Notes under the pieces: model-generated
Told to the model about the DNA's origin: nothing
Databases searched by the model: none
Seen by the model: only the letters and a program-made list of their open reading frames with translations
Source: Methylophaga sp.
GTDB taxonomy: Bacteria; Pseudomonadota; Gammaproteobacteria; Nitrosococcales; Methylophagaceae
DNA length: 33,036 nucleotides
Assembly (NCBI GenBank): GCA_026988435.1
Contig: JALSLH010000075.1
Location: forward strand, 1-33,036
Direction: 5' to 3'
Shown here: positions 7,503-33,036 of the stretch, in pieces
How the letters are laid out: the number at the start of each line of letters is the position of its first letter
How positions within the stretch are numbered: position 1 is the first letter of the stretch
Translations under genes and position numbers: made by a program

Positions 7503-7519
7503 TTTATTCAGCACTGAAC

Positions 7520-8524
7520 TCATCTTAACGATGGCAAGCGTTGTTGGATTTGTAAGGGATAGTGTTGCACAATAAAGGTTCGACAATCATGCCAAAAAGC
7601 AGACAGTATTAACAAACCCGATCCAATACTTAATGCGGCAAAAGCAAAGCCCAGACTGACGACACCATATTGTTCTAAGATAGTGTTAAAAGCATAAAGC
7701 ACATAAATTAATGCTGAAACCATCAGCGCTCTACGGTCAATAGAAACCGAGATAATAGCAATAACAATGTATAAAAGCGTAACCAAGACCGCCTGCCATA
7801 ACCCAATCGCATTATCGAACACATTTAATAGTGCAAATATCGGATGTACAATCAGTGGTGCGGCAACAAGATGAAGCCAAAAGGCCACATCTGAACGCCG
7901 AGTTTGACGCTGTATATCTGATGAATCCCATTTCATTGCTAGCAAAAAAACGATTACGCCAGCAATAAAGATAATCGGTATCATCCACTCTCGTGTCTCT
8001 GACACCAGACCAAACAATAAAAACATGATGCTTGCAACTACGGTGGCGATACCTGCTGCTACTGTAATCGGCACTTTAAATCGTTGCCAGTGGAGCCATG
8101 CTGCAATCGCTGCAATCGCTGATACCACACCTGTTTGTAGCTCACTGCTCCATCCACTATTTTGACACGCTGCCAAGCCAGCAACAAAAACACCGCCAAC
8201 AAATGCCAGTAATAAAACGATTGAAGGTAACGCCATTCGCCGCTTTAGGGTGAAAAACTCAGCAAGCCCCCAAGCTGTAGCTGCTTGGGCCATACCGCCT
8301 AAAAAAGGATGAATAGATCGTGCGATCCATGACACTGAAACAAGCAGTAAAAAACAGGCAATAACAACAAATATATCGTTGAAACCGGTGATTAATCGAA
8401 AATGCTCTTCATCTACAATCGGTGAAGTTCTGTTGTTGGCGATATGCTCTCTAAAGGCTTGTGCGGTATCCTTGGTTATCACTCCGGCATCTATTGCGGA
8501 GCTTAAATCCTCTTCACTATACAT
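7520..8524 (-). CDS. Polytopic membrane protein of unknown function
   Basis: 334 residues. A soluble N-terminal part (about 1-48, EEDLSSAIDAGVITKDTAQAFREHI) resembles the short helical head of DUF2157-type membrane proteins. About ten hydrophobic helices follow, roughly at 49-67, 72-92, 100-118, 131-147, 152-174, 180-197, 213-232, 243-262, 266-283 and 290-310. The C-terminus is basic. I see no catalytic motif and do not recognise the family with confidence. It starts 16 bp after the parB stop on the same strand, so it is probably the last gene of the mnmG-rsmG-parAB transcript. Nothing indicates a role in chromosome segregation. Confidence 0.8.
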   Translation of the reverse strand: MYSEEDLSSAIDAGVITKDTAQAFREHIANNRTSPIVDEEHFRLITGFNDIFVVIACFLLLVSVSWIARSIHPFLGGMAQAATAWGLAEFFTLKRRMALPSIVLLLAFVGGVFVAGLAACQNSGWSSELQTGVVSAIAAIAAWLHWQRFKVPITVAAGIATVVASIMFLLFGLVSETREWMIPIIFIAGVIVFLLAMKWDSSDIQRQTRRSDVAFWLHLVAAPLIVHPIFALLNVFDNAIGLWQAVLVTLLYIVIAIISVSIDRRALMVSALIYVLYAFNTILEQYGVVSLGFAFAALSIGSGLLILSAFWHDCRTFIVQHYPLQIQQRLPSLR

Positions 8525-17720: not shown

Positions 17721-20255
17721 ATGAGCAACAAACAAACACTCGTCGTTATTGGTAACGGTATGGTCGGCCATAACTTCTTGGTCAGTCTAATGGCCAGCGA
17801 TATTAAAGAAAATTATAATGTCGTCACTTTTTGTGAAGAGCCTATTCCCGCCTATGATCGTGTTCATTTAAGCGAATATTTCGCGGGTAAATCTGCTGAT
17901 GACTTATCATTGGTAGAGCTTGGCTTTTTTGAAGACAATGACATCACCATTCATATGGGTGATAAAGCGAACACTATTGACCGAGCGGCTAAAACTGTCG
18001 TGTCTGATAAAGGTGTGACCATTCATTATGACAAATTGGTTTTAGCGACCGGTTCAACTGCATTTGTTCCCCCCATTCCCGGAAACGACCGTGATCAGTG
18101 CATTCCTTATCGTACTATTGCCGATCTCGATGAAATGAAAGTAGCAGCTACTAAATCAAAAGTCGGTGTGGTTGTCGGCGGTGGTTTATTAGGCCTTGAA
18201 GCGGCTAAAGCATTACAAGATCTTAAGCTTGAAACGCATGTTGTTCAGTTTGGGCCTCGTTTGATGGAAGCGCAACTCGATGATGGCGGCGCAGATTTAT
18301 TAAAACAAAAAATTGAAGATTTAGGTGTTAATGTTTTAACGAACAAAAATACAATAAAAATTGTCGATGGCGACAAACTTAAACATAAAATGGTATTCGC
18401 TGACGGTGGTGAGCTTGAAACAGATGTCATTTTGTATTCTGCTGGCATTCGTCCCCGTTATGAAATTGCTGCAGACTGTGGTTTAGAAATCGGCGGGCGT
18501 GGTGGCGTTGCCATTAATGATCAATGCTTAAGCTCTGATGAAGACATTTATGCCATTGGCGAATGTGCGTCATGGAATGAACAAATTTTTGGTTTAGTGG
18601 CCCCTGGTTACGCTATGGCGCGTACTGTGGTGGCGCATTTAGCAGGTGACGAAACCGCGTTTACGGGTTCTGATATGAGCACCAAGTTAAAATTAAATGG
18701 CGTAGACGTTGCCAGCATTGGTGATGCACATGCTAAAACGCCAAACTCCTTAGTTTATACCTATCAAAATGGCGTTGATGGTATCTATAAACGCCTTGTC
18801 GTTAGTGCCGACAATAAACAATTATTAGGCGCGGTATTAGTGGGTGATGCTTCTGGCTACCCAACCTTATCGCAATATTATGCAAGCAATATTGAGTTGC
18901 CAGAAAACCCTGATTCATTAATTTTACCTTCTCGCTCAGATGAATCGGTAGGTCTTGGCCCAGATGCATTGCCGGCTTCAGCACAAATTTGTTCTTGTTA
19001 CGATGTATCAAAAGGTGATATTTGCACTGCCATTGAAGCTGGCTGCACCACCATGGGCGCATTAAAAGATGAAACGAAAGCGGCAACCGGCTGTGGCGGT
19101 TGTGCTGCTTTATTAAAATCGGTGCTTGATTGCGAATTAGAAAAAGCAGGTATTGAGGTTAATACCGATATTTGTGAACATTTCGCCTATACACGCCAAG
19201 ATTTATATAACTTAATCATGGTTGAAGAAATTAAAACCTTTGCTGATCTGATCAAAACTCATGGCACCGGTCAGGGCTGTGAAATTTGTAAGCAAGCTGT
19301 TGGCTCGATCTTAGCGTCATATTGGAATGAATATATCTTACAAAATGAACATCTCGGCGTTCAAGATACCAACGATACTTTCTTAGCCAATATGCAAAAA
19401 GATGGTACATATTCTGTTGTTCCTAGAATGACAGGGGGTGAGGTGACACCTGAAGGTCTTATTGCTATTGGTCAAATTGCCAAAAAATATGGCCTTTATA
19501 CTAAAGTAACGGGCGGTCAGCGTGTTGATTTATTTGGTGCACGCGTTGATCAACTGCCTTTAATTTGGCAAGAATTAATTGATGCAGGTTTTGAAAGTGG
19601 CCATGCCTACGGTAAATCGTTACGTACCGTTAAATCATGCGTAGGTAGCACATGGTGTCGCTTTGGTGTTGATGATAGCGTTGGCCTAGCGGTAGAGCTT
19701 GAAAATCGTTATAAAGGTCTACGTGCACCGCATAAAATTAAATTTGCCGTATCGGGTTGTACTCGTGAATGTGCAGAAGCACAAAGTAAAGATATCGGTA
19801 TCATTGCAGTTGAAGGTGGCTGGAACTTATACGTCTGTGGTAATGGTGGCATGAAACCGCGTCATGGTGATTTATTTGCCACTAACCTTGATAAAGAAAC
19901 CTTGATTAAATACATCGATCGCGTACTGACATTCTATGTACAAACCGCTGATCGCATGCAACGTACTTCTGTTTGGATGGAAAATATGGAAGGCGGCTTG
20001 GATTATCTAAAATCAGTCGTGATTGACGATAAACTGGATATTTGTGACCGACTAGAAAAACAAATGGAGCATGTTGTTGAAACCTATCAATGTGAGTGGA
20101 AAACAACCATTGAAGATGAAAGCAAACTGAAGCGCTTCCGTCACTTTGTCAACAGCGACAAACATGATGAAAATATTTTATTTGTTGAAGAGCGTGGGCA
20201 AATTCGTCCTGCCAATATTGAAGAACGTGAACACTTATTAGCGGAGAAAGTATAA
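17721..20255 (+). CDS. nirB: Assimilatory NAD(P)H nitrite reductase, large subunit
   Basis: Reduces nitrite to ammonium with six electrons from NAD(P)H in the cytoplasm. It has 844 residues. The FAD loop GNGMVG is at 11-16 and the NAD loop GGGLLGLE at about 153-160. A first Cys-rich BFD-type [2Fe-2S] segment begins ICSCYDV near 422, and a second (ICEHFAY to CEICKQ) spans about 487-525. The siroheme/[4Fe-4S] half follows. The four cluster cysteines are C640 and C646 (CVGSTWC) and C680 and C684 (CTREC). It is the first gene of the operon, with a GAGG ribosome site, and its last base overlaps the nirD start. Confidence 0.97.
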   Translation: MSNKQTLVVIGNGMVGHNFLVSLMASDIKENYNVVTFCEEPIPAYDRVHLSEYFAGKSADDLSLVELGFFEDNDITIHMGDKANTIDRAAKTVVSDKGVTIHYDKLVLATGSTAFVPPIPGNDRDQCIPYRTIADLDEMKVAATKSKVGVVVGGGLLGLEAAKALQDLKLETHVVQFGPRLMEAQLDDGGADLLKQKIEDLGVNVLTNKNTIKIVDGDKLKHKMVFADGGELETDVILYSAGIRPRYEIAADCGLEIGGRGGVAINDQCLSSDEDIYAIGECASWNEQIFGLVAPGYAMARTVVAHLAGDETAFTGSDMSTKLKLNGVDVASIGDAHAKTPNSLVYTYQNGVDGIYKRLVVSADNKQLLGAVLVGDASGYPTLSQYYASNIELPENPDSLILPSRSDESVGLGPDALPASAQICSCYDVSKGDICTAIEAGCTTMGALKDETKAATGCGGCAALLKSVLDCELEKAGIEVNTDICEHFAYTRQDLYNLIMVEEIKTFADLIKTHGTGQGCEICKQAVGSILASYWNEYILQNEHLGVQDTNDTFLANMQKDGTYSVVPRMTGGEVTPEGLIAIGQIAKKYGLYTKVTGGQRVDLFGARVDQLPLIWQELIDAGFESGHAYGKSLRTVKSCVGSTWCRFGVDDSVGLAVELENRYKGLRAPHKIKFAVSGCTRECAEAQSKDIGIIAVEGGWNLYVCGNGGMKPRHGDLFATNLDKETLIKYIDRVLTFYVQTADRMQRTSVWMENMEGGLDYLKSVVIDDKLDICDRLEKQMEHVVETYQCEWKTTIEDESKLKRFRHFVNSDKHDENILFVEERGQIRPANIEEREHLLAEKV

Positions 20256-20590
20256 TGGGCTGGCAGGATGTATGTAGTAAAAATGATCTCCAGCCTAATT
20301 CTGGCGTATGCGCTTTAGTTGAAGATCAGCAAGTGGCTATTTTTTATATGCCCGACAATAATGCCATTTATGCAATTAATAATTATGACCCCTTTGGTAA
20401 AGTACATGTGCTTTCTCGTGGTTTAATTGGTGATCTAAACGGCGAACCGATGGTGTCTTCACCGCTTTACAAGCAACATTTCAGCTTGAAAACTGGACAA
20501 TGTTTTGAAGATGACAGCGTGACCATACCTGCCTATGCCGTTCGCATTGTAGGTGATCGTGTCGAAGTTAACTTAGCGGGAGAACAATAA
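20255..20590 (+). CDS. nirD: Nitrite reductase small subunit
   Basis: Small Rieske-fold partner of NirB, 111 residues (E. coli 108). The order DVCSKNDLQPNSGVCALV, then an IYAINNYDPFGK segment, then GEPMVSSPLYKQHFSLKTGQC fits NirD. As in this family, the usual Rieske Cys/His cluster ligands are not all present. It starts at the A of the nirB stop (TAATG), with GCGGAGA as ribosome site inside nirB, so the two subunits are translationally coupled. Confidence 0.95.
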   Translation: MGWQDVCSKNDLQPNSGVCALVEDQQVAIFYMPDNNAIYAINNYDPFGKVHVLSRGLIGDLNGEPMVSSPLYKQHFSLKTGQCFEDDSVTIPAYAVRIVGDRVEVNLAGEQ

Positions 20591-21507
20591 TGACATTAAA
20601 TTATTTCATTGCTGATGTATTTACTAATCAACTATTCTCTGGAGCACAGATAGCCGTTTTCCCCAATGCTGATACGCTAAGCGATAAGCAAATGGCGTTG
20701 ATTGCAAGAGAAATGAATTTATCTGAAACTGTTTTTGTTTCAAACCCAGATAACAGTATCAACTCACGAAGAATGCGAATATTTTCACCGTTAACCGAAA
20801 TTGACTTTGCTGGTCACCCTATTATTGCAACCGCTTTTGTCTTAGCTTCATCTGGCGATTTAACTTTAACAGATAGCAACACATCGCTAACGTTTGTGCA
20901 AAATAGCGGTGAAATTGAAGTTAATGTGTCGGCGAATGACGGTAAAGTAAATTTTGTACAATTTGCTCGTAAAGTCTCTTCTGTGATTGATCGATTTACA
21001 CCATCAACTACTGAATTAGCAGAACTCCTTTCTATTAGCCCTGATGATATTGACAGCAAAAAATATTCTACAAGATTAGTCTCGTGTGGTTTCCCCTATT
21101 TGATTGTGCCTGTTTGGAATTATGAAACGGTTAGAACAGCAACGTTTAATTTTAACGCTTGGAGCCAATCGGCTGCACCGCAAACAGCCGCTTCAGAAAT
21201 TTTATTATTCTCGCCCAAAACACCATTCAAAGATGCTAACTTTAATGCACGTTTATTAGGCCCAAACATCGGGGTTCACGAAGATCCACCTGTCGGTAGT
21301 GCCATGCCTGCTTTTGCTTCTTATTTATGCTCATTTGATTTCACTCAGCAAGGCACCCATGCTTTTGCTGTTGATCGAGGCGATGAAACCAATAGACGCA
21401 GCGTGCTAAACATTGAAATGGATCATAAAAAACAATCTGAGCTAGCGCTAAGAATAGGCGGTGAAGCCGTGATGGTTGCCGAAGGTAAAATGTTGATTCC
21501 TGACTAA
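20590..21507 (+). CDS. PhzF family isomerase-like protein
   Basis: 305 residues with the two-domain PhzF fold signatures. The catalytic glutamate E46 lies in NLSETVFV, DFAGHPIIATAFVL is in the first half, and EDPPVGSAMPAF is in the second. Family members catalyse isomerisation or epimerisation by proton transfer (phenazine PhzF, diaminopimelate-epimerase-like folds), but most are unassigned. The ATG overlaps the nirD stop (TAATG), so it is translated with the nitrite reductase. A phenazine role is unlikely, since no other phz gene is here. A housekeeping, metabolite-repair or nitrogen-linked isomerase is possible, but that is speculation. Confidence 0.88.
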   Translation: MTLNYFIADVFTNQLFSGAQIAVFPNADTLSDKQMALIAREMNLSETVFVSNPDNSINSRRMRIFSPLTEIDFAGHPIIATAFVLASSGDLTLTDSNTSLTFVQNSGEIEVNVSANDGKVNFVQFARKVSSVIDRFTPSTTELAELLSISPDDIDSKKYSTRLVSCGFPYLIVPVWNYETVRTATFNFNAWSQSAAPQTAASEILLFSPKTPFKDANFNARLLGPNIGVHEDPPVGSAMPAFASYLCSFDFTQQGTHAFAVDRGDETNRRSVLNIEMDHKKQSELALRIGGEAVMVAEGKMLIPD

Positions 21508-21512
21508 CACAA

Positions 21513-22730
21513 ATGAAAGAAAAATTAGTCCTAATCGGCAACGGCATGGCCGGCATGCGCACCATTGATGAGTTGCTAAAACTCGCGCCCGATAAGTATG
21601 ATATTACCGTATTTGGTGCCGAGCCTCATGGCAATTACAACCGTATTATGCTGTCACCTGTGCTTGCCGGCGACAAATCCATTGGTGAGATCCTTATTCA
21701 TGATCTGCAATGGTATCAAGACAATAACATTGCCCTTCACACTGAAAAAACGATCACTCAAATTGATCGTGCTAAACAAACTGTTATCGCTGAAGACGGC
21801 ATGACCACAGATTACGATCGCCTCATTCTAGCGACTGGCTCTAATCCAGTGATGCTGCCAATTCCCGGTATTGAATTAGAAGGTGTTATTAGCTTTCGTG
21901 ATATCAATGATGTCAACATCATGATCGAAACGGCCAAAACACATAAAAAAGCCATTGTCATTGGCGGAGGCTTACTTGGCCTAGAAGCCGCTAATGGCTT
22001 GATGATCCAAGGTATGGACGTATCAGTGGTGCATCGAAGTGGCACATTGATGAACCAACAGTTGGATCAAGCCGCTTCCGATCTGATGCTGATAGAACTA
22101 CAGGCCAAAGGCATGCATTTTTTAATGCACCACGATACCGCTGAATTCATCGGCAAAGATCGTGTTGAAAAAGTGCGCTTTAACGATGGCAGCGAGGTCG
22201 AAGCTGATTTAGTGGTCATGGCTGTCGGTGTTCGTCCGAATATTAAGCTCGCGCAAGACTCCGGCATTGCCTGCGAACGTGGCGTTTTAGTTGATGACAC
22301 TATGAGCAGCTATTCCCCTAATATTTATGCTGTGGGTGAATGTGTGCAACATCGCAACCAAACTTTTGGTCTTGTTGCCCCACTTTATGAGCAAGCAAAA
22401 GTATGTGCTAGCCGCCTTGCCAATAGTGGTGCAGCTAAATACAGTAGCTCAGCCACCGCAACTAAATTAAAAGTAACGGGCATTGATTTATTCTCTGCTG
22501 GCGACTTCATTGGTGATGATAATACCGAAAATTTAGTCTTTAGCGATCCGGCACGTCATATTTATAAAAAAATTGTATTAAAAGATAATAAAATCATTGG
22601 CACCGTGCTTTATGGTGATACCACTGATGGTAATTGGTATTTTTCACTGCTCAACGAGCAGCAAAATATTGCCGCTATTCGTGAAGATATTTTATTTGGC
22701 CAGCATCAAGTTGATAAGGAATTATTGTGA
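21513..22730 (+). CDS. nasB: FAD-dependent electron-transfer subunit of assimilatory nitrate reductase (NasB/NasC-like)
   Basis: 405 residues. The FAD loop GNGMAG is at 9-14, ATGSNP at about 108-113, the NAD(P)H loop GGGLLGLE at 151-158, and the second FAD motif NIYAVGECV near 273-281. It is colinear with the N-terminal reductase half of NirB but stops before any BFD or siroheme domain. It probably takes electrons from NAD(P)H and hands them to the [2Fe-2S] tail of NasA next door. It starts 5 bp after phzF without a clear ribosome site, so coupling is likely. Its last four bases overlap the nasA GTG start. The symbol follows Bacillus usage; in Klebsiella the equivalent is NasC. Confidence 0.88.
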   Translation: MKEKLVLIGNGMAGMRTIDELLKLAPDKYDITVFGAEPHGNYNRIMLSPVLAGDKSIGEILIHDLQWYQDNNIALHTEKTITQIDRAKQTVIAEDGMTTDYDRLILATGSNPVMLPIPGIELEGVISFRDINDVNIMIETAKTHKKAIVIGGGLLGLEAANGLMIQGMDVSVVHRSGTLMNQQLDQAASDLMLIELQAKGMHFLMHHDTAEFIGKDRVEKVRFNDGSEVEADLVVMAVGVRPNIKLAQDSGIACERGVLVDDTMSSYSPNIYAVGECVQHRNQTFGLVAPLYEQAKVCASRLANSGAAKYSSSATATKLKVTGIDLFSAGDFIGDDNTENLVFSDPARHIYKKIVLKDNKIIGTVLYGDTTDGNWYFSLLNEQQNIAAIREDILFGQHQVDKELL

Positions 22731-25378
22731 CTCAATCAGTATCAACAACCTGCCCATATTGTGGCGTTGGCTGCGGTGTATTAGCAACAACACATAAGGA
22801 TGGTTCAATAAGCGTAAAAGGCGATAGCGCCCACCCGGCTAATTTTGGACGATTATGCTCAAAAGGTTCTGCCTTAGCAGATACGGTTGATCTTGAAGGG
22901 CGCTTGCTTCATCCATACATTAACGGTCAACAAAGCTCTTGGGATGATGCCTTAAATGCGGTTGCCGATGGCTTCCAAAAAGTCATTAATGAGCATGGCC
23001 CTGATGCTGTGGCATTTTATGTGTCTGGTCAATTATTGACCGAAGATTACTATGTTGCCAATAAGCTAATGAAAGGCTTTATCGGCAGCGGCAATATTGA
23101 TACTAACTCACGTTTATGCATGTCATCTGCTGTCGCGGGTTATAAACGTGCCTTTGGCGCCGATGCCGTGCCTTGCAATTATGAAGATTTAGAGCAAGCC
23201 GACCTTATTGTAATTGAAGGTTCAAATACCGCTTGGTGCCACCCCGTTGTGTTCCAACGCATTGTTAAAGCGAAAGAAGATCGTCCCGAATTAAAAATAG
23301 TGGTGATTGACCCTCGCAAAACGGCTACGTGTGAAATTGCTGATCTACACCTTCCACTAAAATCAGGTAGTGATACAACCTTATTTAATGGTCTATTACA
23401 TTATTTAAAACAACATAATCATATTGATAGCGGTTTTGTTGAACATCATACCGATGGTTTTACCGCTGCTATTGCTGCCGCCCAACAATCATCAGGCACT
23501 AGCGAGCAAGTCGCCCAATATTGTGGTTTGAATCAAGATGATGTGAATGCCTTTTTCCACTTATTCGCTAATACTGAAAAAGTGGTCACGCTCTATTCTC
23601 AAGGGGTTAATCAATCCTCATCGGGCACGGATAATTCCAATAGTATTATTAATTGTCATCTAGCCACAGGGCGAATTGGCAAACCCGCTATGGGGCCTTT
23701 TTCAATTACCGGTCAACCTAATGCAATGGGCGGGCGCGAAGTGGGTGGTTTATCCAACCAACTTGCCGCTCATATGGATATTGATAATCCGACGCATCAT
23801 GATTTAGTGTCACGTTTTTGGGGCACAGACAGCTTGACCACATCGGCCGGTGCCAAAGCCGTCGACATGTTTAATGATGTAGCTAGTGGCAAAATTAAAG
23901 CCATTTGGATCATGGCAACCAACCCTGTCGTCACCTTGCCTGATGCCGATAAAGTGCGTGAAGCATTACAAGCTTGTGATCTGGTTGTGGTATCTGATTG
24001 TGAACAAAATACTGATACCACCGCCTGCGCCGATATCTTATTGCCCGCGCTCGCATGGGGCGAAAAATGTGGCACGGTGACGAACTCTGAACGTCGCATT
24101 TCTCGGCAACGTAATATTTTGCCTCACCCGGGCGAAGCAGAAGAAGACTGGTGGATTATCAGTCATGTCGCGCAACGCTTAGGCTTCGAACAACAATTTG
24201 ATTATCGCAGCTCGGCCGAAATTTTTCGTGAACATGCCGCTTTATCTGGTTATGAAAATAAGGGAGCGCGTGACTTTGATATCAGTGGCTTAATCGAATT
24301 GAGTGATGAACAATATGATCAACTTGAACCAGTGCAATGGCCGATCAATGCCCGCAATCCTAACGGCACCGAACGATTATTTACTGATAAACGCTTTTTT
24401 ACCGCCAGCGGTAAAGCGCAATTTATCGCTATTCAGCCTCGTTCACCGGTTAATGCGCCTAACGAAGCCTATCCTCTTATTCTAAATACGGGGCGGGTGA
24501 GAGATCAATGGCACACCATGACACGCACAGCACGAAGTGCAAAATTAAATGGGCATATTCCCGAACCATTTGTTGAGATTCACCCCGCTGATGCCAAGAA
24601 ATGGTCGGTAATAGAAGGCGCCTTAGCTCTAATTGAAAGCCAATGGGGCTCAGTATTAGCACGTGTTCAAATTACCGACAATCAACGCCAAGGCAGCGTG
24701 TTTATTCCCATGCACTGGAATCAGCAAAATGCCTCATCATCACGGGTAGATACTGTGGTCAACCCCGTAGTTGACCCACTTTCAGGCCAGCCTGAGTCCA
24801 AACATACCCCTGTATCGATACGCCCTTATCAAGCTGTTTGGCATGGATTTATACTTTCTCGCACCCCATTGCCGAGCATTAATTGCCAATATTGGTTACA
24901 AATTAAAGGTGAACAATTCTGGCGCTATGAGCTAGCAGGTGATACCGCTATTAACGATAGCTCTGCTTGGGCAAAACAACACTTGAGCAGTGATGGCGAG
25001 TGGTTAGAATTTTCTGATAATACATCACGACGCTATCGGGCAGGCGTCATAAAAAACAATCAACTTGAAAGCGTAATATTTATCGCCCCCACTCACGAGC
25101 TCCCCACGCGTTCATGGTTAAGCCAGTTATTTGCAGAAAAAGAACTAAGTAGCGAAGCCCGCACGAATCTACTCGCAGGCAAACCCGGTGCCGATCAGCC
25201 TGATATTGGTCCCTTAATTTGTGCTTGTTTTGGTGTCGGTGAAAACACCATTAAAGAAGCCATTGCCTGCGGTGATGCAAAAACAGTTGATGATATTGGC
25301 AAACAACTTAAAGCTGGAACCAACTGTGGTTCATGCATTCCTGAGTTAAAAAAACTACTGTATGCAACCGCAAAATAA
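22727..25378 (+). CDS. nasA: Assimilatory nitrate reductase, molybdenum subunit
   Basis: Cytoplasmic Mo-bis-MGD enzyme that reduces nitrate to nitrite. It has 883 residues. The N-terminal [4Fe-4S] ligands are C9, C12, C16 and C44 (CPYCGVGC, then GRLCSKG). The Mo ligand is C131 in NSRLCMSSAV. NAMGGREVGGL and TNPVVTLPDADKVREAL are family segments. The last ~60 residues (ICACFGVGENTIKEAI to CGSCIPEL) form a BFD-type [2Fe-2S] domain that would take electrons from the NasB-like reductase. The start is GTG at 22727, within GTGA overlapping the previous stop, with AAGGA just upstream. There is no Tat signal, consistent with cytoplasmic assimilation. Confidence 0.96.
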   Translation: MTQSVSTTCPYCGVGCGVLATTHKDGSISVKGDSAHPANFGRLCSKGSALADTVDLEGRLLHPYINGQQSSWDDALNAVADGFQKVINEHGPDAVAFYVSGQLLTEDYYVANKLMKGFIGSGNIDTNSRLCMSSAVAGYKRAFGADAVPCNYEDLEQADLIVIEGSNTAWCHPVVFQRIVKAKEDRPELKIVVIDPRKTATCEIADLHLPLKSGSDTTLFNGLLHYLKQHNHIDSGFVEHHTDGFTAAIAAAQQSSGTSEQVAQYCGLNQDDVNAFFHLFANTEKVVTLYSQGVNQSSSGTDNSNSIINCHLATGRIGKPAMGPFSITGQPNAMGGREVGGLSNQLAAHMDIDNPTHHDLVSRFWGTDSLTTSAGAKAVDMFNDVASGKIKAIWIMATNPVVTLPDADKVREALQACDLVVVSDCEQNTDTTACADILLPALAWGEKCGTVTNSERRISRQRNILPHPGEAEEDWWIISHVAQRLGFEQQFDYRSSAEIFREHAALSGYENKGARDFDISGLIELSDEQYDQLEPVQWPINARNPNGTERLFTDKRFFTASGKAQFIAIQPRSPVNAPNEAYPLILNTGRVRDQWHTMTRTARSAKLNGHIPEPFVEIHPADAKKWSVIEGALALIESQWGSVLARVQITDNQRQGSVFIPMHWNQQNASSSRVDTVVNPVVDPLSGQPESKHTPVSIRPYQAVWHGFILSRTPLPSINCQYWLQIKGEQFWRYELAGDTAINDSSAWAKQHLSSDGEWLEFSDNTSRRYRAGVIKNNQLESVIFIAPTHELPTRSWLSQLFAEKELSSEARTNLLAGKPGADQPDIGPLICACFGVGENTIKEAIACGDAKTVDDIGKQLKAGTNCGSCIPELKKLLYATAK

Positions 25379-25401
25379 AGTGACCGTTAAAAGGATGGGC
25401 A

Positions 25402-27102
25402 ATGCAATTTCATTCTAAACAAGCTAATTCCGTGTTAGCCATGAGTACGATGGCTTTTTCTGCCTGCTTTGCGATTTGGGTGATCTTTTCGATTATCGGC
25501 ATTCCCATCAAGGAGTTATTAGATCTAAGCGATACTCAATTTGGTTTCTTAATTTCTACGCCTATTCTCAGCGGGTCGTTAATGCGATTACCTATTGGTA
25601 TCCTGACCGATCGTTACGGTGGCCGTAATGTGTTTGTTATCTTATTGCTCTCCGTCATTATTCCCCTATATCTAATGGGCTCCGCAACTGAGTATTGGCA
25701 GTTTATTGTTCTAGGCCTCTTTGTGGGTATTGCGGGTGCCTCCTTTACAGTCGGTGTCACTTATACTGCTCGTTGGTATCCTCCTGCTCGGCGTGGACTT
25801 GCCATGGGTATCTTTGGTGCAGGAAATGCGGGTGCAGCATTAACCCAAATATTCGCCCCCAGTTTGATTGTATTATGGGGCTGGCAATCTGTGCCTCGTA
25901 TTTATGCTGTTGCGCTGATCATCGTTATCATCATTTTTTGGATGTTCAGTTATGAAGATCCAAGTCACCGAAGCGCTAATAAGGTGTCTGTAAAAGATCA
26001 ATTAGCACTAATACGCGATCCTCGGATCTGGAAATATTGCCAATATTATTCACTAGTCTTTGGCGGTTTTGTGGGTGTATCACTGTGGATCACAAAGTAT
26101 TATGTCAGTGAATATCACCTCGATCTAACAACAGCGGCACTACTCGCCACTATTTTTGTACTTCCATCAGGAATCGTACGCGCCTTTGGTGGCTGGTTAT
26201 CTGATCGTTATGGTGCCTATATTGTCACATGGGGCGTACTTTGGGTAAGCTGGGTCAGTCTGTTTTTACTCGCTTACCCACAAACAGCTATGACCATTAA
26301 AGTGATGTCTGGAGAAGACTGGGTATTTAATCTTGGGCTCAATATTTGGGTTTTCACAACCATCTTATTTACATTAGGCATCGCATGGGGGCTTGGTAAG
26401 GCATCTGTATTTAAAGCATTGGCCGATGAGTTTCCTGAACATTTTGGAGTAGCTTCGGGTATTGTTGGTCTAGCAGGTGGGCTGGGCGGATTCTTATTAC
26501 CTGTACTTTTCGGTGTATTAACCGATATTACCCGCGTTAATTCCAGCATCTTTATTTTATTGTATGGTGTGACATCGGTGTCGTTAATCTTAATGTACTT
26601 CACCTTTGGGCGTGCACATGAGGCCGAAGTCATTCAACATGCTAAAGAAGAAATAAAAGATGCAGAAACACTTCGTACAACCGCTCATCTGGATGACCAA
26701 CAGCGAGAAATAATCTCTGCATTAATTCGACCAAAAATGGAAAAATGTGCCACTAAATTATCTTGGTTACTTAATGATAGAAAGGCCTTAGAAAATCAAT
26801 TAAATGAACTACAAAAAGAGTTACCTCATTACAAATCACTCTATATCTTGAATTCTGCAGGCATACAAATTACTGCTAACCTTACTTCGAAAGGTCTCGA
26901 TGATGAAAGGTTGGGCAGAAATTGTGCCTCACGCCCATACATGCAAGAAATGTTTGCTGATAAGGATTTCAATTTGTCGGAAAATTACATCAGCTACGAT
27001 ACAAAAACGCCTGAACTGACAGCTATTCATGTTATTCGTAATCATAAAAATGCGCGTCTTGGATTTTTAGTCGTTGATTATTATTTAGCCGACCTACCTT
27101 AA
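25402..27102 (+). CDS. NarK-type nitrate/nitrite transporter with C-terminal PDC/Cache-like sensor domain
   Basis: 566 residues, about 100-160 longer than ordinary NarK/NasA-type transporters. Residues 1-403 form a 12-helix major-facilitator core. It has R62 and R260 in the positions of the substrate arginines of E. coli NarK (R89, R305), the first nitrate signature GNAGAALTQ (141-149) and the second GLAGGLGGFLLP (356-367). A charged helical linker (about 404-475) follows. Residues 476-566 resemble the distal part of a PDC/Cache ligand-binding domain: LYILNSAGIQIT, GRNCASRPYM, LSENYIS, TAIHVIRN and LGFLVVDYYLADLP. By MFS topology this domain would be cytoplasmic. It is the last gene of the nirB operon, 23 bp after nasA with an AAGGA ribosome site. 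The domain call is from motif memory. Confidence 0.85.
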   Translation: MQFHSKQANSVLAMSTMAFSACFAIWVIFSIIGIPIKELLDLSDTQFGFLISTPILSGSLMRLPIGILTDRYGGRNVFVILLLSVIIPLYLMGSATEYWQFIVLGLFVGIAGASFTVGVTYTARWYPPARRGLAMGIFGAGNAGAALTQIFAPSLIVLWGWQSVPRIYAVALIIVIIIFWMFSYEDPSHRSANKVSVKDQLALIRDPRIWKYCQYYSLVFGGFVGVSLWITKYYVSEYHLDLTTAALLATIFVLPSGIVRAFGGWLSDRYGAYIVTWGVLWVSWVSLFLLAYPQTAMTIKVMSGEDWVFNLGLNIWVFTTILFTLGIAWGLGKASVFKALADEFPEHFGVASGIVGLAGGLGGFLLPVLFGVLTDITRVNSSIFILLYGVTSVSLILMYFTFGRAHEAEVIQHAKEEIKDAETLRTTAHLDDQQREIISALIRPKMEKCATKLSWLLNDRKALENQLNELQKELPHYKSLYILNSAGIQITANLTSKGLDDERLGRNCASRPYMQEMFADKDFNLSENYISYDTKTPELTAIHVIRNHKNARLGFLVVDYYLADLP

Positions 27103-27278
27103 ATATGGATACTCCAGATTAACTGACTGTCACTTAATTTTAAGTTACCCAAAATAGTTACTTGAATTTAGAGCATACTTCACTAGGAAATATGTAAGAA
27201 TTACCATAAAGATAATGGTACACGGGTGCCCATAAGCGTTAAGATAAAAAGGAGGAAGAGCAACGCCAAGGCTCGAAC

Positions 27279-27902
27279 ATTATTATTCGCATATACCTAC
27301 TATTTGTAACTATTTTTCTGACTGCTTGCAGTCATGAGGCGAGCCATCTTCCCTCCCCTATACAGCTTCCGGGTGCAATAATTAGCTCAACTATCGAAAA
27401 TACACTTTATAGTGCTAAACGCAACAAAGTTGAGATTTATGTTGCACAGCATTATTTAGCGATACGTCACGATACACATCTTGGTGGCGGCTCTGCACTT
27501 GAGGGTGCATTTGATAATGCAAGCATAATAGGTCGACAACGTAATATGGCTATAAACAGCTTCATCAATGACTATGATTATCTCTTTAACAACAATCAGC
27601 TAGTGGCAGACCATTTGAGCGAAGTCATTTTTGTTTTATATGGTGTAAAACGCATTGATAAAAAAATTAATGGCCTTAGTCATATGAAGGCATATCAAAT
27701 TATTAATAATTATGCGACCGAAAACTTTGAATCTCTTCGGGTAGCTGTGCAACAAGGACATGGGGCAGGCTTGGATGAGCTGGAAACACGCTTAAATATC
27801 ACCGAGCCAACAAAGCGCCAATTATTTAATGAACAGGCAAAGTTACTTTATAAAACAATTTATTTAGAACCTGTGGTGGTGGGAATAATGGTTCATAGCT
27901 AA
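27279..27902 (+). CDS. Putative lipoprotein with apparent ATT start (or gene with lost start codon)
   Basis: The reading frame is open from 27243 to 27902, but no ATG, GTG or TTG occurs before the ATG at 27546. The codons ahead of that ATG clearly encode protein: IIRIYLLFVTIFLTAC is a textbook lipoprotein signal with lipobox LTAC (the Cys codon at 27327), and NKVEIYVAQHYLAIRHDTHL and GGGSALEGAF continue into the rest. ATT at 27279 with AAGG (27268-27271) seven bases upstream is the best start, giving 207 residues. A perfect AAGGAGG at 27249-27255 is 23 bases away, too far to serve it. The mature part is helical with no motif I recognise. It lies between two nitrate-transporter genes. The alternative is a 118-residue protein from 27546. 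The flanking stretch 27103-27278 shows no clear promoter. Confidence 0.55.
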   Translation: MIIRIYLLFVTIFLTACSHEASHLPSPIQLPGAIISSTIENTLYSAKRNKVEIYVAQHYLAIRHDTHLGGGSALEGAFDNASIIGRQRNMAINSFINDYDYLFNNNQLVADHLSEVIFVLYGVKRIDKKINGLSHMKAYQIINNYATENFESLRVAVQQGHGAGLDELETRLNITEPTKRQLFNEQAKLLYKTIYLEPVVVGIMVHS

Positions 27903-27917
27903 TCACCGCTTTCTCTC

Positions 27918-27963
27918 GCCCCAATTATGTGCGCTATAAATACGTATCGCGCCCAAGCGGTGC
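27918..27963 (+). promoter_or_regulatory. Paired NtrC-type enhancer sites of the second narK
   Basis: Dyads GCCCCAATTATGTGC (27918-27932) and GCGCCCAAGCGGTGC (27949-27963) are centred 31 bp apart. The second fits GC(A/G)CC-N5-GGTGC, the classical NtrC form. They lie about 94 and 63 bp upstream of the -24 element at 28019. Confidence 0.75.
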
Positions 27964-28018
27964 GACCTGACAGCCCTATTTTGTGGTTATCCCTTTGTTT
28001 TAACATATATTTTAGCTC

Positions 28019-28034
28019 TGGCATGATTCTCGCT
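28019..28034 (+). promoter_or_regulatory. Sigma-54 promoter of narK2-kinase-VC0807 operon
   Basis: TGGCATGATTCTCGCT has TGGCA in the -24 half and GCT in the -12 half at exact spacing. The start should be near 28045. An imperfect dyad GTGCT..AGCAC (28041-28058) surrounds the start point and could be a hairpin or an operator. Confidence 0.8.
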
Positions 28035-28089
28035 ATGGGTGTGCTAAGTACTAAGCACCTATAATCAATTTTTATTTCGAGGAGTATTC

Positions 28090-29556
28090 ATGTCTGCACA
28101 AAAACTCAAACTATTATCCTTTAGCGGTAATACCAAAATCCTTCACCTAAGTTGGATGGCTTTTTTCATCAGCTTTTTAGTGTGGTTTAACCATGCGCCT
28201 TTGTTAATAATGATTCAACAATCATTGGGGCTGACAGATCAACAGATTAAAACTATCTTAATTCTCAATGTGGCGCTAACAATTCCTGCCCGTATTGTGG
28301 TGGGTATGCTGGTGGATAAGTATGGCCCTAAAATAATGTTCCCTTTGCTTTTAGGTATATCTAGCTTTATCTGTTTCTTTTTTGCAATGGCGGATAGTTT
28401 TGAACAGTTAGCAGCAGCTCGGTTTATGTTAGGTTTTGTTGGTGCTGGCTTTGTTATCGGTATTCGTATGATTTCTGAATGGTACCCAGCAAAACAAGTC
28501 GGTCTTGCTGAAGGTATCTATGGTGGTTGGGGTAACTTTGGTAGTGCCGCTGCAGCAATGACGTTACCGACGGTTGCATTAATGTTTGGCGGTGAAGAAG
28601 GCTGGCGTTATGCGGTCGCTTTAACGGGTGCAATTGCCCTTGTTTATGCATTCATTTACTACAATGGTGTTTCTGATACGCCAAAAGGTTCAACCTACTT
28701 TAAACCTAAAAAATCAGGTGGAATGGAAGTAACGAGCAAAGGCGATTTCTTTTTATACCTTGCTATGAATATACCTTTGTATGCTGCTTTAGCACTATTA
28801 ACATGGAAGCTATCGCCGAGTGGTGTAAGCCTATTATCTGCGGCTATTGCTCAAGCTCTTTATATTGGTTTAGCTGTACTGTTTTGTTATCAGGCTTATC
28901 ATATTTACCAAGTTAATAAGGCTATTTTTACAACGCCTGTTCCTGAAATTCACCGTTATAAATTTAAACAAGTTGCCATTTTAGATTTGGCTTATCTTGC
29001 GACCTTTGGTTCCGAGTTAGCAGTCGTATCGATGTTACCTTTATTTTTTCATGATACATTTGAAATTAGCGCAGTTCAGGCAGGCTTATTGGCTTCTGGT
29101 TTTGCATTTATGAATTTAGTTTCACGCCCTATCGGCGGCTTGTTTAGTGATCGCTGGGGTCGAAAACGCACATTGTCCATATGCATTTCAGGCTTGGCAG
29201 TGGGTTACTTTATAATGAGCCTAATCACTCCCGAATGGGCAATTGTATTTGCAGTATTGGCAACAATGGCATGTTCTTTCTTTGTCCAAGCTGGTGAAGG
29301 TGCGGTATTTGCTGTTGTGCCATTAGTACAACGTCGTTTAACAGGTCAAGTTGCAGGCATGGCTGGTGCTTATGGTAATGTAGGTGCGGTGGCATTCTTA
29401 ACTATTTTATCTCTAGTGTCAGCTCAAACATTCTTCCTTGTTATTGCTGTAACTGCCGTAGTAACATTGATTGCCGTGCAATTTATGGATGAACCAAAAG
29501 GTCAAATGGCTGAAATTCTGCCGGATGGTACTGTGCAAATGATAGATGTACACTGA
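28090..29556 (+). CDS. narK: NarK-family nitrate/nitrite transporter
   Basis: Second nitrate/nitrite major-facilitator protein of the window, 488 residues with about twelve helices. R48 or R53 ([14 protein letters not shown]) and an arginine in [16 protein letters not shown] mark the two substrate-arginine helices. Nitrate signatures [12 protein letters not shown] and [12 protein letters not shown] are both present. It differs from the first copy by a loop of about 60 residues between the two halves and by lacking the C-terminal sensor domain. It resembles P. aeruginosa NasA-type carriers in context, lying beside a kinase gene. The ribosome site is GAGGAG 5-7 bases ahead of the ATG. Confidence 0.92.
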
Positions 29557-29575
29557 TCTTAAAAAGATGTGAACA

Positions 29576-31300
29576 ATGACAGCAAAACTAAAATTTAACG
29601 TCGGCTCATGTTCAGATAAAGGGCTCAAAGAAGAAAATCAAGATTCTTTGGCTCACTTTATTCCTGAAAATATCAACTTGCTTAACGGCAAGGGCGCTGC
29701 CTTTTGCTTAGCAGATGGGGTGAGCAGTAGCGCCGAAGCCAAGCAGGCAAGTCAAGCCTGCGCTACTGGCTTTATGGAAGATTATTTCAGCACACCAGAC
29801 TCATGGTCAGTAAAAAAATCAGGCGGCAAAGTCCTTACGGCTATTAATAACTGGTTATATAGTCAAAGCAACCAATTTCACAGTGTTGACAGGGGGTTGG
29901 CCAGCACCTTTTGTGGGCTGGTGATTAAATCAACCACGGCACATCTGTTCCATGTTGGTGATTCTCGCATTTATTTATTTCGTGACAATAATCTCGAACA
30001 ACTCACCACCGATCACCGTATTCACCTGCCCGGTGAACAAGAATATCTCGGTCGCGCGATGGGTATAGATTATCGCTTAGATATTGATTACAAATCTTTA
30101 GCTGTTGAAGTGGGAGATGTGTTTTTTATCTCAACCGATGGTGTTCATGATTATTTGTCAGATAAAAAAATCCTTGCCGAACTCAAGTCCGAAGAAGCTG
30201 ATTTAACCATACTTTGTGAACGCTTAGTGGCGCAATCTTTAGAAAATGGCAGCCTTGATAATATCAGCTGTCAAGCCATACAAATTACTGACCTACCTTC
30301 TCAAGATAGAGATGAAGCTTATTCACAGTTAACTAAGTTACCCTTCCCCCCTGAATTATATGAAGGTGTTATTTTAGACGGCTACCGTGTCACCAGAGAG
30401 TTACATGCCAGCTCCACCAGCCAACTTTATTTGGCTGTCGATACGGATACCAATGAAAAAGTAGTGTTGAAAACACCATCTATCAACTTTGAAGATGACC
30501 CTGCCTATATAGAGCGTTTTCAGATGGAAGAATGGATCGGCCGTCGCATTGATAGCCCGCATGTGATTCGCACAATTGAACAAGTCCGCCCCCGATTGTT
30601 TCTTTATTATGTGATGGAATACATCGAAGGCAAAACACTTGAGCAATGGATGGCCGATCAAACAGAACCAGATCTTACTGTCATTAGAAATATCGTTTCT
30701 CAAGCGGTTTCTGGGCTGCGAGCTTTCCACCGTTTAGACATGCTTCACCAAGATATTAAACCCGGCAATATCATGATCACCGAAGAAGGCTTAGTCAAAA
30801 TCGTCGATTTTGGCTCGACCAAAATTGCAGGAATGGCCGATGTCTCCACACCGATTGAACGCAAAGAATTGCTAGGCACCAAGCACTATACCGCCCCCGA
30901 ATATCTGATTAATGGGACAGGTACAACACAATCTGATCTATTTGCTTTGGGCTGCGTCACTTATGAAATGATTACTGGCAAACTCCCTTATGGAACTGCC
31001 ATTGCCAATGCAACCACGGAATCAGCCTTTAGCAAACTGAAATATGCCCCGATTAGTCGCCATGTGAGTAATATTCCTGATTGGATTGATCGTGCTCTGC
31101 AAAAAGCCGTCTCAATTGAACCCATTAATCGTTATGAAAAAATGTCTGAGCTTGAAAGCGATCTTAGAAAGCCTAACCCAGACTTTCTAAAAGAATCATC
31201 TCGACCGTTATTAGAGCGAAATCCACTTGCTTTCTGGAAATTTATCTCCGCATTGCTTTTTATCTCTAATTTGATTCTTCTTTATCTGCTCATTCAATGA
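29576..31300 (+). CDS. Bifunctional PP2C-type phosphatase / Ser-Thr protein kinase, membrane-anchored
   Basis: 574 residues. Residues 1-240 are a PP2C phosphatase with metal-binding acidic residues D23 (ENQDS), D47 (LADGVS), D188 (STDGVHDYL) and D228 (LDNIS), plus GDSRIY at 128-133. Residues about 262-530 are a Hanks-type kinase: K299 (VVLK), E318/E319 in the C-helix, HQDIKPGN at 391-398, DFG at 411-413, APE at 440-442. The nucleotide loop has no glycine (ELHASSTSQLYLA), and the usual HRD arginine is Gln. One membrane helix (about 551-573) ends the protein, so both domains face the cytoplasm. It is 19 bp after narK. A kinase gene also sits in the P. aeruginosa nir/nas cluster (PA1782, from memory). 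The target is unknown; the transporters are candidates. Confidence 0.93.
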   Translation: MTAKLKFNVGSCSDKGLKEENQDSLAHFIPENINLLNGKGAAFCLADGVSSSAEAKQASQACATGFMEDYFSTPDSWSVKKSGGKVLTAINNWLYSQSNQFHSVDRGLASTFCGLVIKSTTAHLFHVGDSRIYLFRDNNLEQLTTDHRIHLPGEQEYLGRAMGIDYRLDIDYKSLAVEVGDVFFISTDGVHDYLSDKKILAELKSEEADLTILCERLVAQSLENGSLDNISCQAIQITDLPSQDRDEAYSQLTKLPFPPELYEGVILDGYRVTRELHASSTSQLYLAVDTDTNEKVVLKTPSINFEDDPAYIERFQMEEWIGRRIDSPHVIRTIEQVRPRLFLYYVMEYIEGKTLEQWMADQTEPDLTVIRNIVSQAVSGLRAFHRLDMLHQDIKPGNIMITEEGLVKIVDFGSTKIAGMADVSTPIERKELLGTKHYTAPEYLINGTGTTQSDLFALGCVTYEMITGKLPYGTAIANATTESAFSKLKYAPISRHVSNIPDWIDRALQKAVSIEPINRYEKMSELESDLRKPNPDFLKESSRPLLERNPLAFWKFISALLFISNLILLYLLIQ

Positions 31301-31346
31301 TGTATCATATATACCCGTGATACTTCAACAAAACGAGAAAGACTCA

Positions 31347-32060
31347 ATGAGCAATTCAGCAACTACACCGGAACATAAACCACGCCCCTTTATTGATATG
31401 CTTGTCAGCATCATTATTCCTTCTGTAATTTTGATGAAATTTAGTGGTGAAAGTGCGCTTGGCGCCAGTGGCGCATTGATCGCTGCCTTGGCTTTTCCGA
31501 TAGGCTGGGGGCTTTTTGAGCTTATAAAATATCGAAAATTTAATTTTATCGCCCTCTTAGGTTTAGTCAGCGTATTGTTAACGGGTGGCATTGGTTTATT
31601 ACAACTTGATACCAAATGGCTAGCGATTAAAGAAGCGGCCATTCCCGGCATCATCGGCATCGCGGTATTGATTTCAACTCAAACACGTTATCCTTTAATT
31701 AAAACCTTAATCTATAATCCTAAGGTTTTAAATGTCGACAAAATTACCCAAAAACTTGAAGAACTAGGAAAAACTTCAGTGTTTGAATCGCGCTTAATGA
31801 AAGCCACCTATTTTCTGGCGGGCACCTTTTTCTTTTCATCAATAATGAATTATATTCTTGCCAAATGGATTGTCACCAGTCCATCAGGCAGTGAAGAGTT
31901 TAATGAACAACTCGGTCAGATGACACTGCTAAGCTACCCAATGATTGCCATTCCATCGATGATCATGATGATGGTTATTTTTTATTATTTATGGCGCACG
32001 ATTAATGGCATTACTGGGTTCAGCTTGGACGATATCATTAATGCTCCAGAAGAGTCTTAG
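31347..32060 (+). CDS. VC0807-like membrane protein of unknown function
   Basis: 237 residues from the ATG at 31347, which has GAGAAAG just upstream. A GTG at 31317 in the same frame lacks a ribosome site. About six membrane helices are visible, starting FIDMLVSIIIPSVILMKF. The central LLTGGIGLLQLDTKWLAIKEAAIPG resembles the septation-protein/VC0807 type of small membrane proteins. The function is unknown in the family. It follows the kinase gene by 46 bp and is probably co-transcribed with narK2. A target of the phosphatase-kinase is conceivable but unsupported. Confidence 0.72.
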   Translation: MSNSATTPEHKPRPFIDMLVSIIIPSVILMKFSGESALGASGALIAALAFPIGWGLFELIKYRKFNFIALLGLVSVLLTGGIGLLQLDTKWLAIKEAAIPGIIGIAVLISTQTRYPLIKTLIYNPKVLNVDKITQKLEELGKTSVFESRLMKATYFLAGTFFFSSIMNYILAKWIVTSPSGSEEFNEQLGQMTLLSYPMIAIPSMIMMMVIFYYLWRTINGITGFSLDDIINAPEES

Positions 32061-32069
32061 ATAGGGATT

Positions 32070-32114
32070 GCCCTATTTATGTGCATCTGAAATACCGCCG
32101 CGCCCTAGTGGTGC
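32070..32114 (+). promoter_or_regulatory. Paired NtrC-type enhancer sites of the nitrite channel gene
   Basis: Dyads GCCCTATTTATGTGC (32070-32084) and GCGCCCTAGTGGTGC (32100-32114) are centred 30 bp apart. They lie 101 and 71 bp upstream of the -24 element, exactly the geometry of the torF promoter. Both dyads resemble the corresponding ones upstream of narK2. Confidence 0.78.
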
Positions 32115-32177
32115 AAAATAATTAACTCCCTCACTGCCACACCTCCCTAACCAACTGTTTTTACATTGGTTATTTTT

Positions 32178-32193
32178 TGGCATACTTATTGTA
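32178..32193 (+). promoter_or_regulatory. Sigma-54 promoter of the nitrite channel gene
   Basis: TGGCATACTTATTGTA has a good -24 half and TTG at the right place, but GT instead of GC at -12. The start would be near 32204, 49 bases before the ATG. The -12 departure may make it weaker than the other three. Confidence 0.65.
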
Positions 32194-32252
32194 ATTAAGC
32201 TATTTATGCATGTATCAACATGTCTATTAACTTAGCTTTAAGAGAGAGATTT

Positions 32253-33036
32253 ATGTCTTATTTAGAACCCACAGAGTTTGTAACAAAAATGGTGGATGCC
32301 GGTGAAGCAAAAGCCTATATGTCGACCAAAGACACGTTAATTCGTGCATTTATGGCGGGTGCCACTTTGGCATTGGCCGCTGTTTTTGCCATCACCGTAG
32401 CAATGAAAACAGGTTCACCTGTGCTTGGTGCCGTACTTTTCCCTGTCGGTTTCATTATGCTTTATCTAATGAAGTTTGACCTGTTAACCGGTGTGTTTAC
32501 CCTTGTGCCACTTGCTCTGCTTGATAAACGCCCTGGCGTGACGTTTGGCTCAGTAATGCGTAACTGGGGGCTAGTCTTTTTAGGTAACTTAGGCGGCGCT
32601 TTAATGGTGGCATTTATGATGGCATTCATTTTTACTTATGGATTCAATACTGATGGCGGTGCAATTGCGGCAAAAGTATCCAGCATTGGTGAGGCTAGAA
32701 CTATAGGTTATTCAGCACATGGTACAGGTGGCTGGTTTACCGTGTTTATTCGCGGCATGTTATGTAACTGGATGGTATCAATGGGTGTTGTTGGCGCAAT
32801 GATTTCTACTTCAGCTACCGGTAAAATGGCAGCGATGTGGATGCCTATCATGTTGTTCTTTTACATGGGTTTCGAGCATTCAATCGTAAATATGTTTTTA
32901 TTCCCATTCTCAATGATTATGGGTGGTGATTTCACTATTCTAGATTATGTCGTTTGGAATGAGTTACCTACTGTTTTAGGTAATTTAGTAGGTGGGTTTG
33001 TATTGGTAGGCTTACCTTTATATTACACTCACGTTA
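32253..33036 (+). CDS. nirC: Formate/nitrite transporter (FNT) family channel, C-terminus cut by window edge
   Basis: I translated this from the ATG at 32253 to the right edge, giving about 261 residues with the frame still open. The ATG has AGAGAGAG upstream. It shows the FNT pattern of six helices: FMAGATLALAAVFAI, the omega-loop helix FDLLTGVFTLVPLALL, NWGLVFLGNLGGAL, a FIRGMLCNWMVSMG segment and MGFEHSIVNMF with the pore histidine (FocA H209 position). These pentameric channels pass nitrite or formate. Its place beside nitrate assimilation genes and its NtrC-type promoter favour nitrite, so I use nirC with reserve. The omega motif LLTG differs from the usual LFTG. Confidence 0.85.
   Translation, partial: MSYLEPTEFVTKMVDAGEAKAYMSTKDTLIRAFMAGATLALAAVFAITVAMKTGSPVLGAVLFPVGFIMLYLMKFDLLTGVFTLVPLALLDKRPGVTFGSVMRNWGLVFLGNLGGALMVAFMMAFIFTYGFNTDGGAIAAKVSSIGEARTIGYSAHGTGGWFTVFIRGMLCNWMVSMGVVGAMISTSATGKMAAMWMPIMLFFYMGFEHSIVNMFLFPFSMIMGGDFTILDYVVWNELPTVLGNLVGGFVLVGLPLYYTHV

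Follow-up and report, generated by a model that had tools for sequence, protein, structure and literature searches.

The window (the whole 33,036-nucleotide stretch of Methylophaga sp. DNA analyzed here) contains an open reading frame (ORF) at 25402-27102 on the forward strand that starts with ATG and encodes 566 amino acids. Sequence comparisons confirmed that this ORF joins a NarK1-type nitrate carrier (residues 1-403) to a 163-residue C-terminal tail, with the tail (26611-27102) in frame with the carrier. The fusion gene is the last of a same-strand cluster, nirB-nirD-PhzF-like-oxidoreductase-nasA, in which the NasA name is a putative one drawn from domains and context. The features discussed below are as follows:

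17721-20590, forward strand: nirB and nirD, assimilatory nitrite reductase (NIR_SIR, Pyr_redox_2 and Rieske_2 domains).
20590-21507, forward strand: gene for a PhzF-family isomerase, lying within the nirBD-nasA cluster (scores above the TIGR00654 cut-off).
22727-25378, forward strand: nasA-like assimilatory nitrate reductase gene (Molybdopterin, E = 3.7e-74, plus Fer2_BFD), 23 bp upstream of the fusion gene.
25402-26610, forward strand: NarK1-type MFS nitrate transporter domain (residues 1-403; Pfam, NCBIfam and PDB matches, and tree).
26611-26694, forward strand: charged helical linker (residues 404-431; compared with the C-termini of the nearest NarK1s).
26695-26829, forward strand: helical N-terminal portion of the Cache module (residues 432-476, carrying a QR motif at 434-435; alignment with 37 relatives, HMM, and helices in the structural model).
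26830-27099, forward strand: PDC/Cache core (residues 477-566, with R506, R511-P-Y513, Y529 and D559; profiles and Foldseek).

By hydropathy, the last hydrophobic segment of the ORF ends near residue 405, and residues 410-566 contain no hydrophobic 19-residue window (maximum 0.47); profile and structure-sequence matches to NarK reach residues 363-406. The roughly 160 extra residues that a first-pass annotation placed beyond the last NarK membrane helix are thus present as an in-frame tail (404-566), together with every motif it quoted. That annotation divided the tail into a charged linker and a PDC domain of about 90 residues: its core stands at 477-566, but its linker was drawn too long, as only about 404-431 is linker and the module spans 432-566 (135 aa). 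Judged by homology, most of what had been taken for a charged helical linker belongs to the Cache module as its conserved helical N-terminal portion, including the QR at 434-435. A 90-residue PDC behind a plain linker was ruled out, since homology begins at 432.

The carrier (residues 1-403) matched Pfam MFS_1 (E = 1.3e-47), and its best NCBIfam model was NarK TIGR00886, at 211.8 bits, below the curated cut-off of 311.7 (residues 11-363 over positions 2-368 of 368). E. coli NarU and NarK were the closest solved structures (E = 7e-18 to 2e-16), and the alignment extended to residues 402-406. Carrier residues R62 and R260 align with NarU arginines, which we take to be the substrate-binding pair that in E. 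coli NarK comprises the nitrate-holding R89 and R305. We call the carrier NarK-like despite its score under the TIGR00886 cut-off because it groups inside the NarK1s of nar loci, and it is probably a nitrate/H+ symporter.

The nearest NarKs outside the two fusion-bearing species, found in whole-protein genome searches, are 62-66% identical and come from other families. In a tree of 37 NarK domains, the fusion pair clusters with four NarK1s from other families (support 96/99), separately from six other rows of its own genus; the genus search (29 genomes) likewise returned six other Methylophaga species whose NarK1 is only 54-57% identical to the fusion carrier. This placement suggests that the fusion carrier was probably acquired separately from the genus's own NarK1s. 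The five outside NarK1 loci that were read (L153-L157) are of respiratory type: the NarK1 is accompanied by a NarG-sized ORF and by a second, NarK2-like carrier about 535 residues long, and three of the five (L153-L155) also carry a two-component pair; the gene names in these loci are presumed ones, assigned by length, start sequence and order. NarK1 nitrate/H+ symporters of narK1-narK2-narGHJI operons are thus close relatives of the fusion carrier, the nearest being 62-66% identical to it; those read sit in respiratory-type loci and carry no PDC, whereas the fusion combines an assimilatory cluster with a PDC. In the window's genome (assembly 95.1% complete), no narG scored over the cut-off (best 17.7 bits against 1084). 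The carrier groups with NarK1s from respiratory-type loci, yet its own gene neighborhood is assimilatory.

A charged C-terminal extension of about 75-80 aa occurs in eight of the nine nearest NarK1s that were read (L093-L095 and L165-L169), L096 being short. Because the linker at 404-431 is similar in make-up to these extensions, the PDC seems to have been added onto a pre-existing cytosolic helix of NarK1. None of the NarK ORFs read carries a PDC, the second fusion excepted. Separately, NarK ORFs of about 890-925 residues at L110-L113 and L117-L119 resemble NarK1-NarK2 fusions, a known architecture (PMC4689864). That work on nitrate in Methylophaga describes both narK1-narK2 and fused NarK1-NarK2, and the passages of it considered here do not mention a Cache fusion.

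Further NarK-like and regulatory genes lie in this part of the window. At 28090-31300 (forward strand), a gene for a second NarK-like carrier precedes one for a PP2C phosphatase fused to a protein kinase; this pair, or parts of it, recurs in the genus genomes L090, L091, L161 and L163, and some genus genomes hold a further, more distant copy of the kinase. An ORF at 31317-32060 (forward strand; 247 aa) has no Pfam match at 1e-5 and is 90-93% identical in genus genomes L091, L092 and L163.

The fusion is not an assembly error, because the same 566-aa ORF, 95% identical and with the same stop, is present in a second genome, that of the Methylophaga sp. NORP33 MAG (NVWQ02000047.1; L001); this ruled out a frameshift as well. 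Complete fusions were found in 2 of 29 genomes of the genus (whole-protein search) and 2 of 63 of the order (tail search). Among 369 genomes of the class, both the tail search and the whole-protein search returned the fusion in the window's own genome only (1/369 each); 41 genomes matched the whole protein at E <= 1e-60, the others over the carrier only. A tail search of 398 genomes of the phylum also found it only in its own genome (1/398). These genome sets overlap and hold one genome per species, and the fusion calls from tail searches rest on open-frame length. Tail searches of chosen orders and a family returned no fusion (0/6, 0/83, 0/2 and 0/20 genomes), nor did a whole-protein search of 146 genomes (0/146), in which 12 matched over the carrier only and the C-termini of five of the 12 were read.

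Besides the fusion itself, only one class tail match was in a long enough frame (582 aa, in genome G150), and it has a PDC followed by hydrophobic segments. A fusion common in the class was therefore rejected: the complete form is known from two species only. A pattern scan of contigs, which reaches close relatives only, found L001 alone, and searches of plasmids and viral contigs returned nothing. The tail search found no other tail relative in the window's own genome, its one match there (G000) being the fusion.

Relatives of the tail are more widespread than the fusion. Of the 369 class genomes, 101 gave a match, counting the window's own; the open frames that hold these matches are mostly about 310-430 residues long, and the match typically runs from around query residue 30 to the last residue. 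The proteins of this family mostly have 320-400 residues. In the phylum draw, only 7 of 398 genomes matched (own included), three of them outside the class. Thirty-seven loci of such relatives were read. The ORF begins 10-36 residues before the conserved QR in 30 of these, the remaining frames being longer, and in most the PDC module is followed by a second conserved domain with an FSCDG-[ST]-HY motif; L087 is cut at a contig end, and L085 has hydrophobic segments instead. On the Kyte-Doolittle scale, 35 of the 37 have no 19-residue window above 1.6, with L068 borderline (1.64, in its second half) and L085 clearly hydrophobic in its second half. Taken from these sequences, the family appears to be soluble and cytosolic.

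An HMM built from an alignment of 16 of the 37 relatives hit residues 432-566 of the fusion and no other part of it, reaching the end of the protein (E = 1.2e-40, 129 bits). The best pairwise matches between tail and soluble family are 36-48% identical, with 432-566 aligning end to end with the N-terminal module. The C-terminal FSCDG-[ST]-HY domain was absent from the fusion ORF and from all six frames of the downstream DNA in both species, so that no remnant of it was found past the fusion stop. With the HMM match confined to 432-566 and no part of the second domain after it, the N-terminal module is exactly what the fusion holds. The soluble proteins thus share with the tail the N-terminal helical part and the PDC module, QR motif included, but they have an extra C-terminal domain, which the fusion lacks, and no membrane part.

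Five members of the soluble family that were scanned gave no Pfam family over threshold and no NCBIfam match whatever. An operon link of this family to nitrate was considered and rejected, as no neighboring gene family recurs in more than five of the 37 loci; the stretches compared were about 4-18 kb long, and a few loci gave a longer antisense ORF instead of the true gene. Two further observations concern these relatives. At 7494-8465 (forward strand) of L085, from genome G150, the same kind of Cache module precedes strongly hydrophobic segments, possibly a second case in which this type of Cache is joined to a membrane part. In L058, L062, L064, L067 and L070, soluble members carry a further C-terminal extension of about 60-80 aa that looks shared.

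Several lines of evidence bear on the fold of the tail. The best Pfam match of the tail was dCache_1, at 20.2-21.1 bits against a curated threshold of 45, and the scan of the whole 566-aa protein listed no Cache model; the same Pfam model scored 18.5-29.3 bits in five soluble relatives and 42.5 in L085. The NCBIfam KinD model matched the tail weakly (E = 2.8e-4, 19.5 bits). By sequence, the tail alone gave only chance matches to the PDB (phmmer), while the soluble-family profile matched KinD (E = 0.009) and PctA (0.76 and 0.8), the only matches up to E = 1. AlphaFold, run on the tail with an alignment of the two fusion sequences only, gave a best model with pLDDT 61.6 and pTM 0.59, the other four reaching pLDDT 39.7-46.4; a whole-protein model had pLDDT 34.8. 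In the best tail model, the elements run H29-50, H57-70, E74-81, H98-104, H109-116, E125-130, E135-143 and E149-158, and this predicted helix-helix-strand-helices-three-strand order is that expected of a Cache domain, in which a long N-terminal helix leads into a PAS-like alpha/beta core.

The structure prediction proposed in the first-pass annotation thus gave a mixed answer: the best model resembles a Cache domain, but at a pLDDT of only 61.6, and the other four fall well below it. In Foldseek, the first 28 rows were Cache-type sensor domains (KinD, CitA, TlpA, Tlp3, WalK, DctB and others), with none of 743 matches at E <= 0.001 and a best value of 1.3e-3; KinD was first by fold as well as closest by profile. 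Each of these lines is modest, and together they are consistent. The dCache_1 match, homology to the soluble family, the KinD/PctA profile matches and Foldseek all favor the earlier PDC/Cache assignment, with homology to the soluble family as the clearest line and the KinD/PctA matches second. We consider the assignment very likely, with no Cache model reaching its curated threshold. The Cache domains of KinD and PctA, the closest solved structures to the tail family by profile, are extracytoplasmic and belong to a kinase and a chemoreceptor, whereas the PDC of the fusion is on a carrier and putatively cytosolic.

Prokaryotes use Cache domains as their main extracellular sensors. The 12-helix topology of NarK homologues, known from the NarK and NarU structures, places the C-terminus inside, and the NarU/NarK alignment of the fusion carrier runs to the end of its membrane part. 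Because of this topology, and because 35 of the 37 tail relatives have no membrane-like segment, we infer that the PDC/Cache module is probably on the cytosolic side, as the first-pass annotation proposed. The same two observations weigh against a periplasmic PDC that responds to external signals in the usual manner of Cache domains. Such an arrangement would agree with the 78% of Cache domains confidently predicted to be extracellular in the Cache survey (PMC4822843), and we regard it as highly implausible here. The earlier view that a cytosolic PDC is in itself out of place loses force: Cache domains are predominantly extracellular, but YkuI_C and Diacid_rec are reported there to be mainly intracellular (PMC4822843), and a cytosolic PDC is not odd in itself because the donor family appears cytosolic.

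Aligned with PctA, fusion residues R511, Y529 and D559 are read as PctA R126, Y144 and D173, which are respectively a ligand arginine, an aromatic residue and an aspartate in the roles described in PMC10104139. The motif of the universal amino-acid sensor dCache_1AA (PctA Y121, R126, W128, Y129, Y144 and D173) is incomplete in the fusion: R126, Y144 and D173 are kept, while W128 is changed to Y513, Y129 to M514 and Y121 to R506. Because R511, Y529 and D559 are kept and KinD is the nearest solved relative, the sequence hints at a small carboxylate or an amino acid, rather than nitrate, as the candidate ligand, our best guess being a carboxylate. PDB titles include KinD with pyruvate and a KinD R131A mutant, and nothing in the pocket or homology evidence points to nitrate as the ligand.

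Among 35 of the 37 relatives, the divergent L085 and L086 being left out of this count, 31 positions show conservation of at least 90%, and 24 of them are unchanged in the fusion. Of the seven changed positions, five are in the core (R508C, R536T, G557V, D561Y and R563A), one is in the leading helix (438) and one precedes that helix (427). D561 and R563 are at the very end, adjoining where the second domain would start, and these positions may have lost their partner with the absent domain. Given the changed positions, ligand binding by the PDC may be altered or lost.

Comparison of the two species suggests that the tail has been maintained as protein. Over residues 404-566, 23 of 489 bases differ, 14 of the 23 at third codon positions, and dN/dS is 0.15; it falls to 0.10 for 432-566 and to 0.06 for the core (477-566), where 2 of 90 residues differ and nine of ten base changes are at third positions. 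Among the stretches tested, dN/dS is highest in the linker (404-431), at 0.37, where 4 of 28 residues changed. These values indicate protein-level constraint (purifying selection) on the tail, from small counts in closely related species. They argue against a PDC that was fused by chance and is at most stabilizing, with no regulatory role. The seven changed conserved residues, the occurrence of the fusion in two species only and the loosely constrained linker would all fit such a passenger, which we consider rather improbable in view of the low dN/dS and the third-position lean.

Synonymous divergence is lower in the tail than in the carrier (dS 0.15 versus 0.58). This difference was ruled out as a special signal because identity across the region forms a mosaic, ranging from 67% to 98% per 150 bases. 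The mosaic extends over window positions 18623-33036 compared with L001, with, for example, 94-98% identity at 20700-21300 and 70-73% at 28500-29400 (per 150 bases). In L001, about 1.9 kb carrying a permease-like 431-aa ORF takes the place of the segment that corresponds to window 27173-27772. In the window, the ORF listed from 27546 (within 27243-27902, forward strand) runs upstream in frame to a stop at 27240, with no ATG; so extended, it has a lipoprotein-like start (a hydrophobic stretch and LTAC) and a weak DUF3015 match (E = 0.0075).

In the fusion, the carrier and the module are intact, the module is constrained, and helices join it to the last membrane helix, on the cytosolic side if the topology is that of NarK. 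The simplest use for this architecture would be to control nitrate entry at the protein level through a cytosolic ligand or partner. The NarK1-type carrier would import nitrate for assimilation. The PDC would bind either a partner protein or a small metabolite of the cytosol, perhaps an amino acid or carboxylate that reflects the carbon/nitrogen state; the state of the PDC would then pass via the helices after TM12 and slow or permit nitrate uptake. We give a probability of roughly 45% to this main reading, that of an assimilatory NarK1-type carrier whose nitrate uptake is influenced, by way of the PDC, by such a metabolite or partner. A fuller version is more tentative: that a respiratory-type NarK1, moved to an assimilatory operon and joined to the sensing half of a soluble protein, became the first nitrate or MFS carrier directly gated by a cytosolic Cache, with a carbon/nitrogen-status ligand shared with the soluble family.

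Two other uses of the module have to be weighed against control of uptake. Cache domains often dimerize through their long N-terminal helix, and that helical part is kept in the fusion, whose gene directly follows nasA; the PDC could accordingly be a dimerization or docking module that pairs two NarK chains or tethers the carrier to a partner such as NasA or NirB and senses no metabolite. The pocket positions R511, Y529 and D559 are kept along with the fold, which speaks against a purely structural role, and we consider this alternative unlikely but plausible. Control could also run in reverse, as in a transceptor, with nitrate transport changing the PDC and the PDC signaling to a soluble partner. 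The soluble relatives own a C-terminal domain, so that the module may normally talk to another domain, but neither the fusion nor the downstream DNA contains an output domain and the tail search revealed no other relative in the window's genome. We judge such reverse signaling distinctly improbable and retain control of uptake by the PDC as the preferred reading.

The first-pass annotation suggested that a design of this kind was undescribed, and this holds in part. Fusions of MFS carriers to CBS, PAS, CNBD and UspA domains at the C-terminus are described in a review (PMC10710835, citing surveys as its refs 146-147) that also covers plug-on regulatory domains such as MetN C2, ModC and CBS domains. 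These carriers resemble the fusion in joining a carrier to a C-terminal extra domain, but the MFS fusions in that source do not include Cache by name (the word "cache" has 0 occurrences in the text considered), which is the type found here. NrtC, of the cyanobacterial nitrate importer, also has a C-terminal domain, which is needed for inhibition by ammonium (PMC6603209). NrtC is thus similar to the fusion in having such a domain on a nitrate importer; it differs in being an ABC ATPase whose regulatory domain has a putative nitrate site and acts with PII, whereas the fusion pairs MFS with Cache.

The main text of the Cache survey (PMC4822843) does not contain the word "transporter", and among the papers listed by our literature search, judged by title and start of abstract, none describes a Cache-transporter or NarK-sensor fusion, with the MFS-fusion surveys of Willson and colleagues (2019) outside its scope. 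As far as we found, the MFS-Cache pairing is unreported. The finding is less surprising than it first seemed, since regulatory domains at the C-terminus of MFS carriers are known and the related family itself appears to be cytosolic.

Our data suggest that, in two related marine bacteria, a nitrate importer gained the sensor-like half of a free-floating protein, probably on its inner face. If the PDC gates uptake, it would give these organisms fast, protein-level control of nitrate import, and it would provide a transport read-out for finding the ligand of an uncharacterized PDC family. Should the carrier be gated in this way, the ligand acting on it would be the one sought for the soluble PDC family as well, and changes in nitrate uptake would reveal it.
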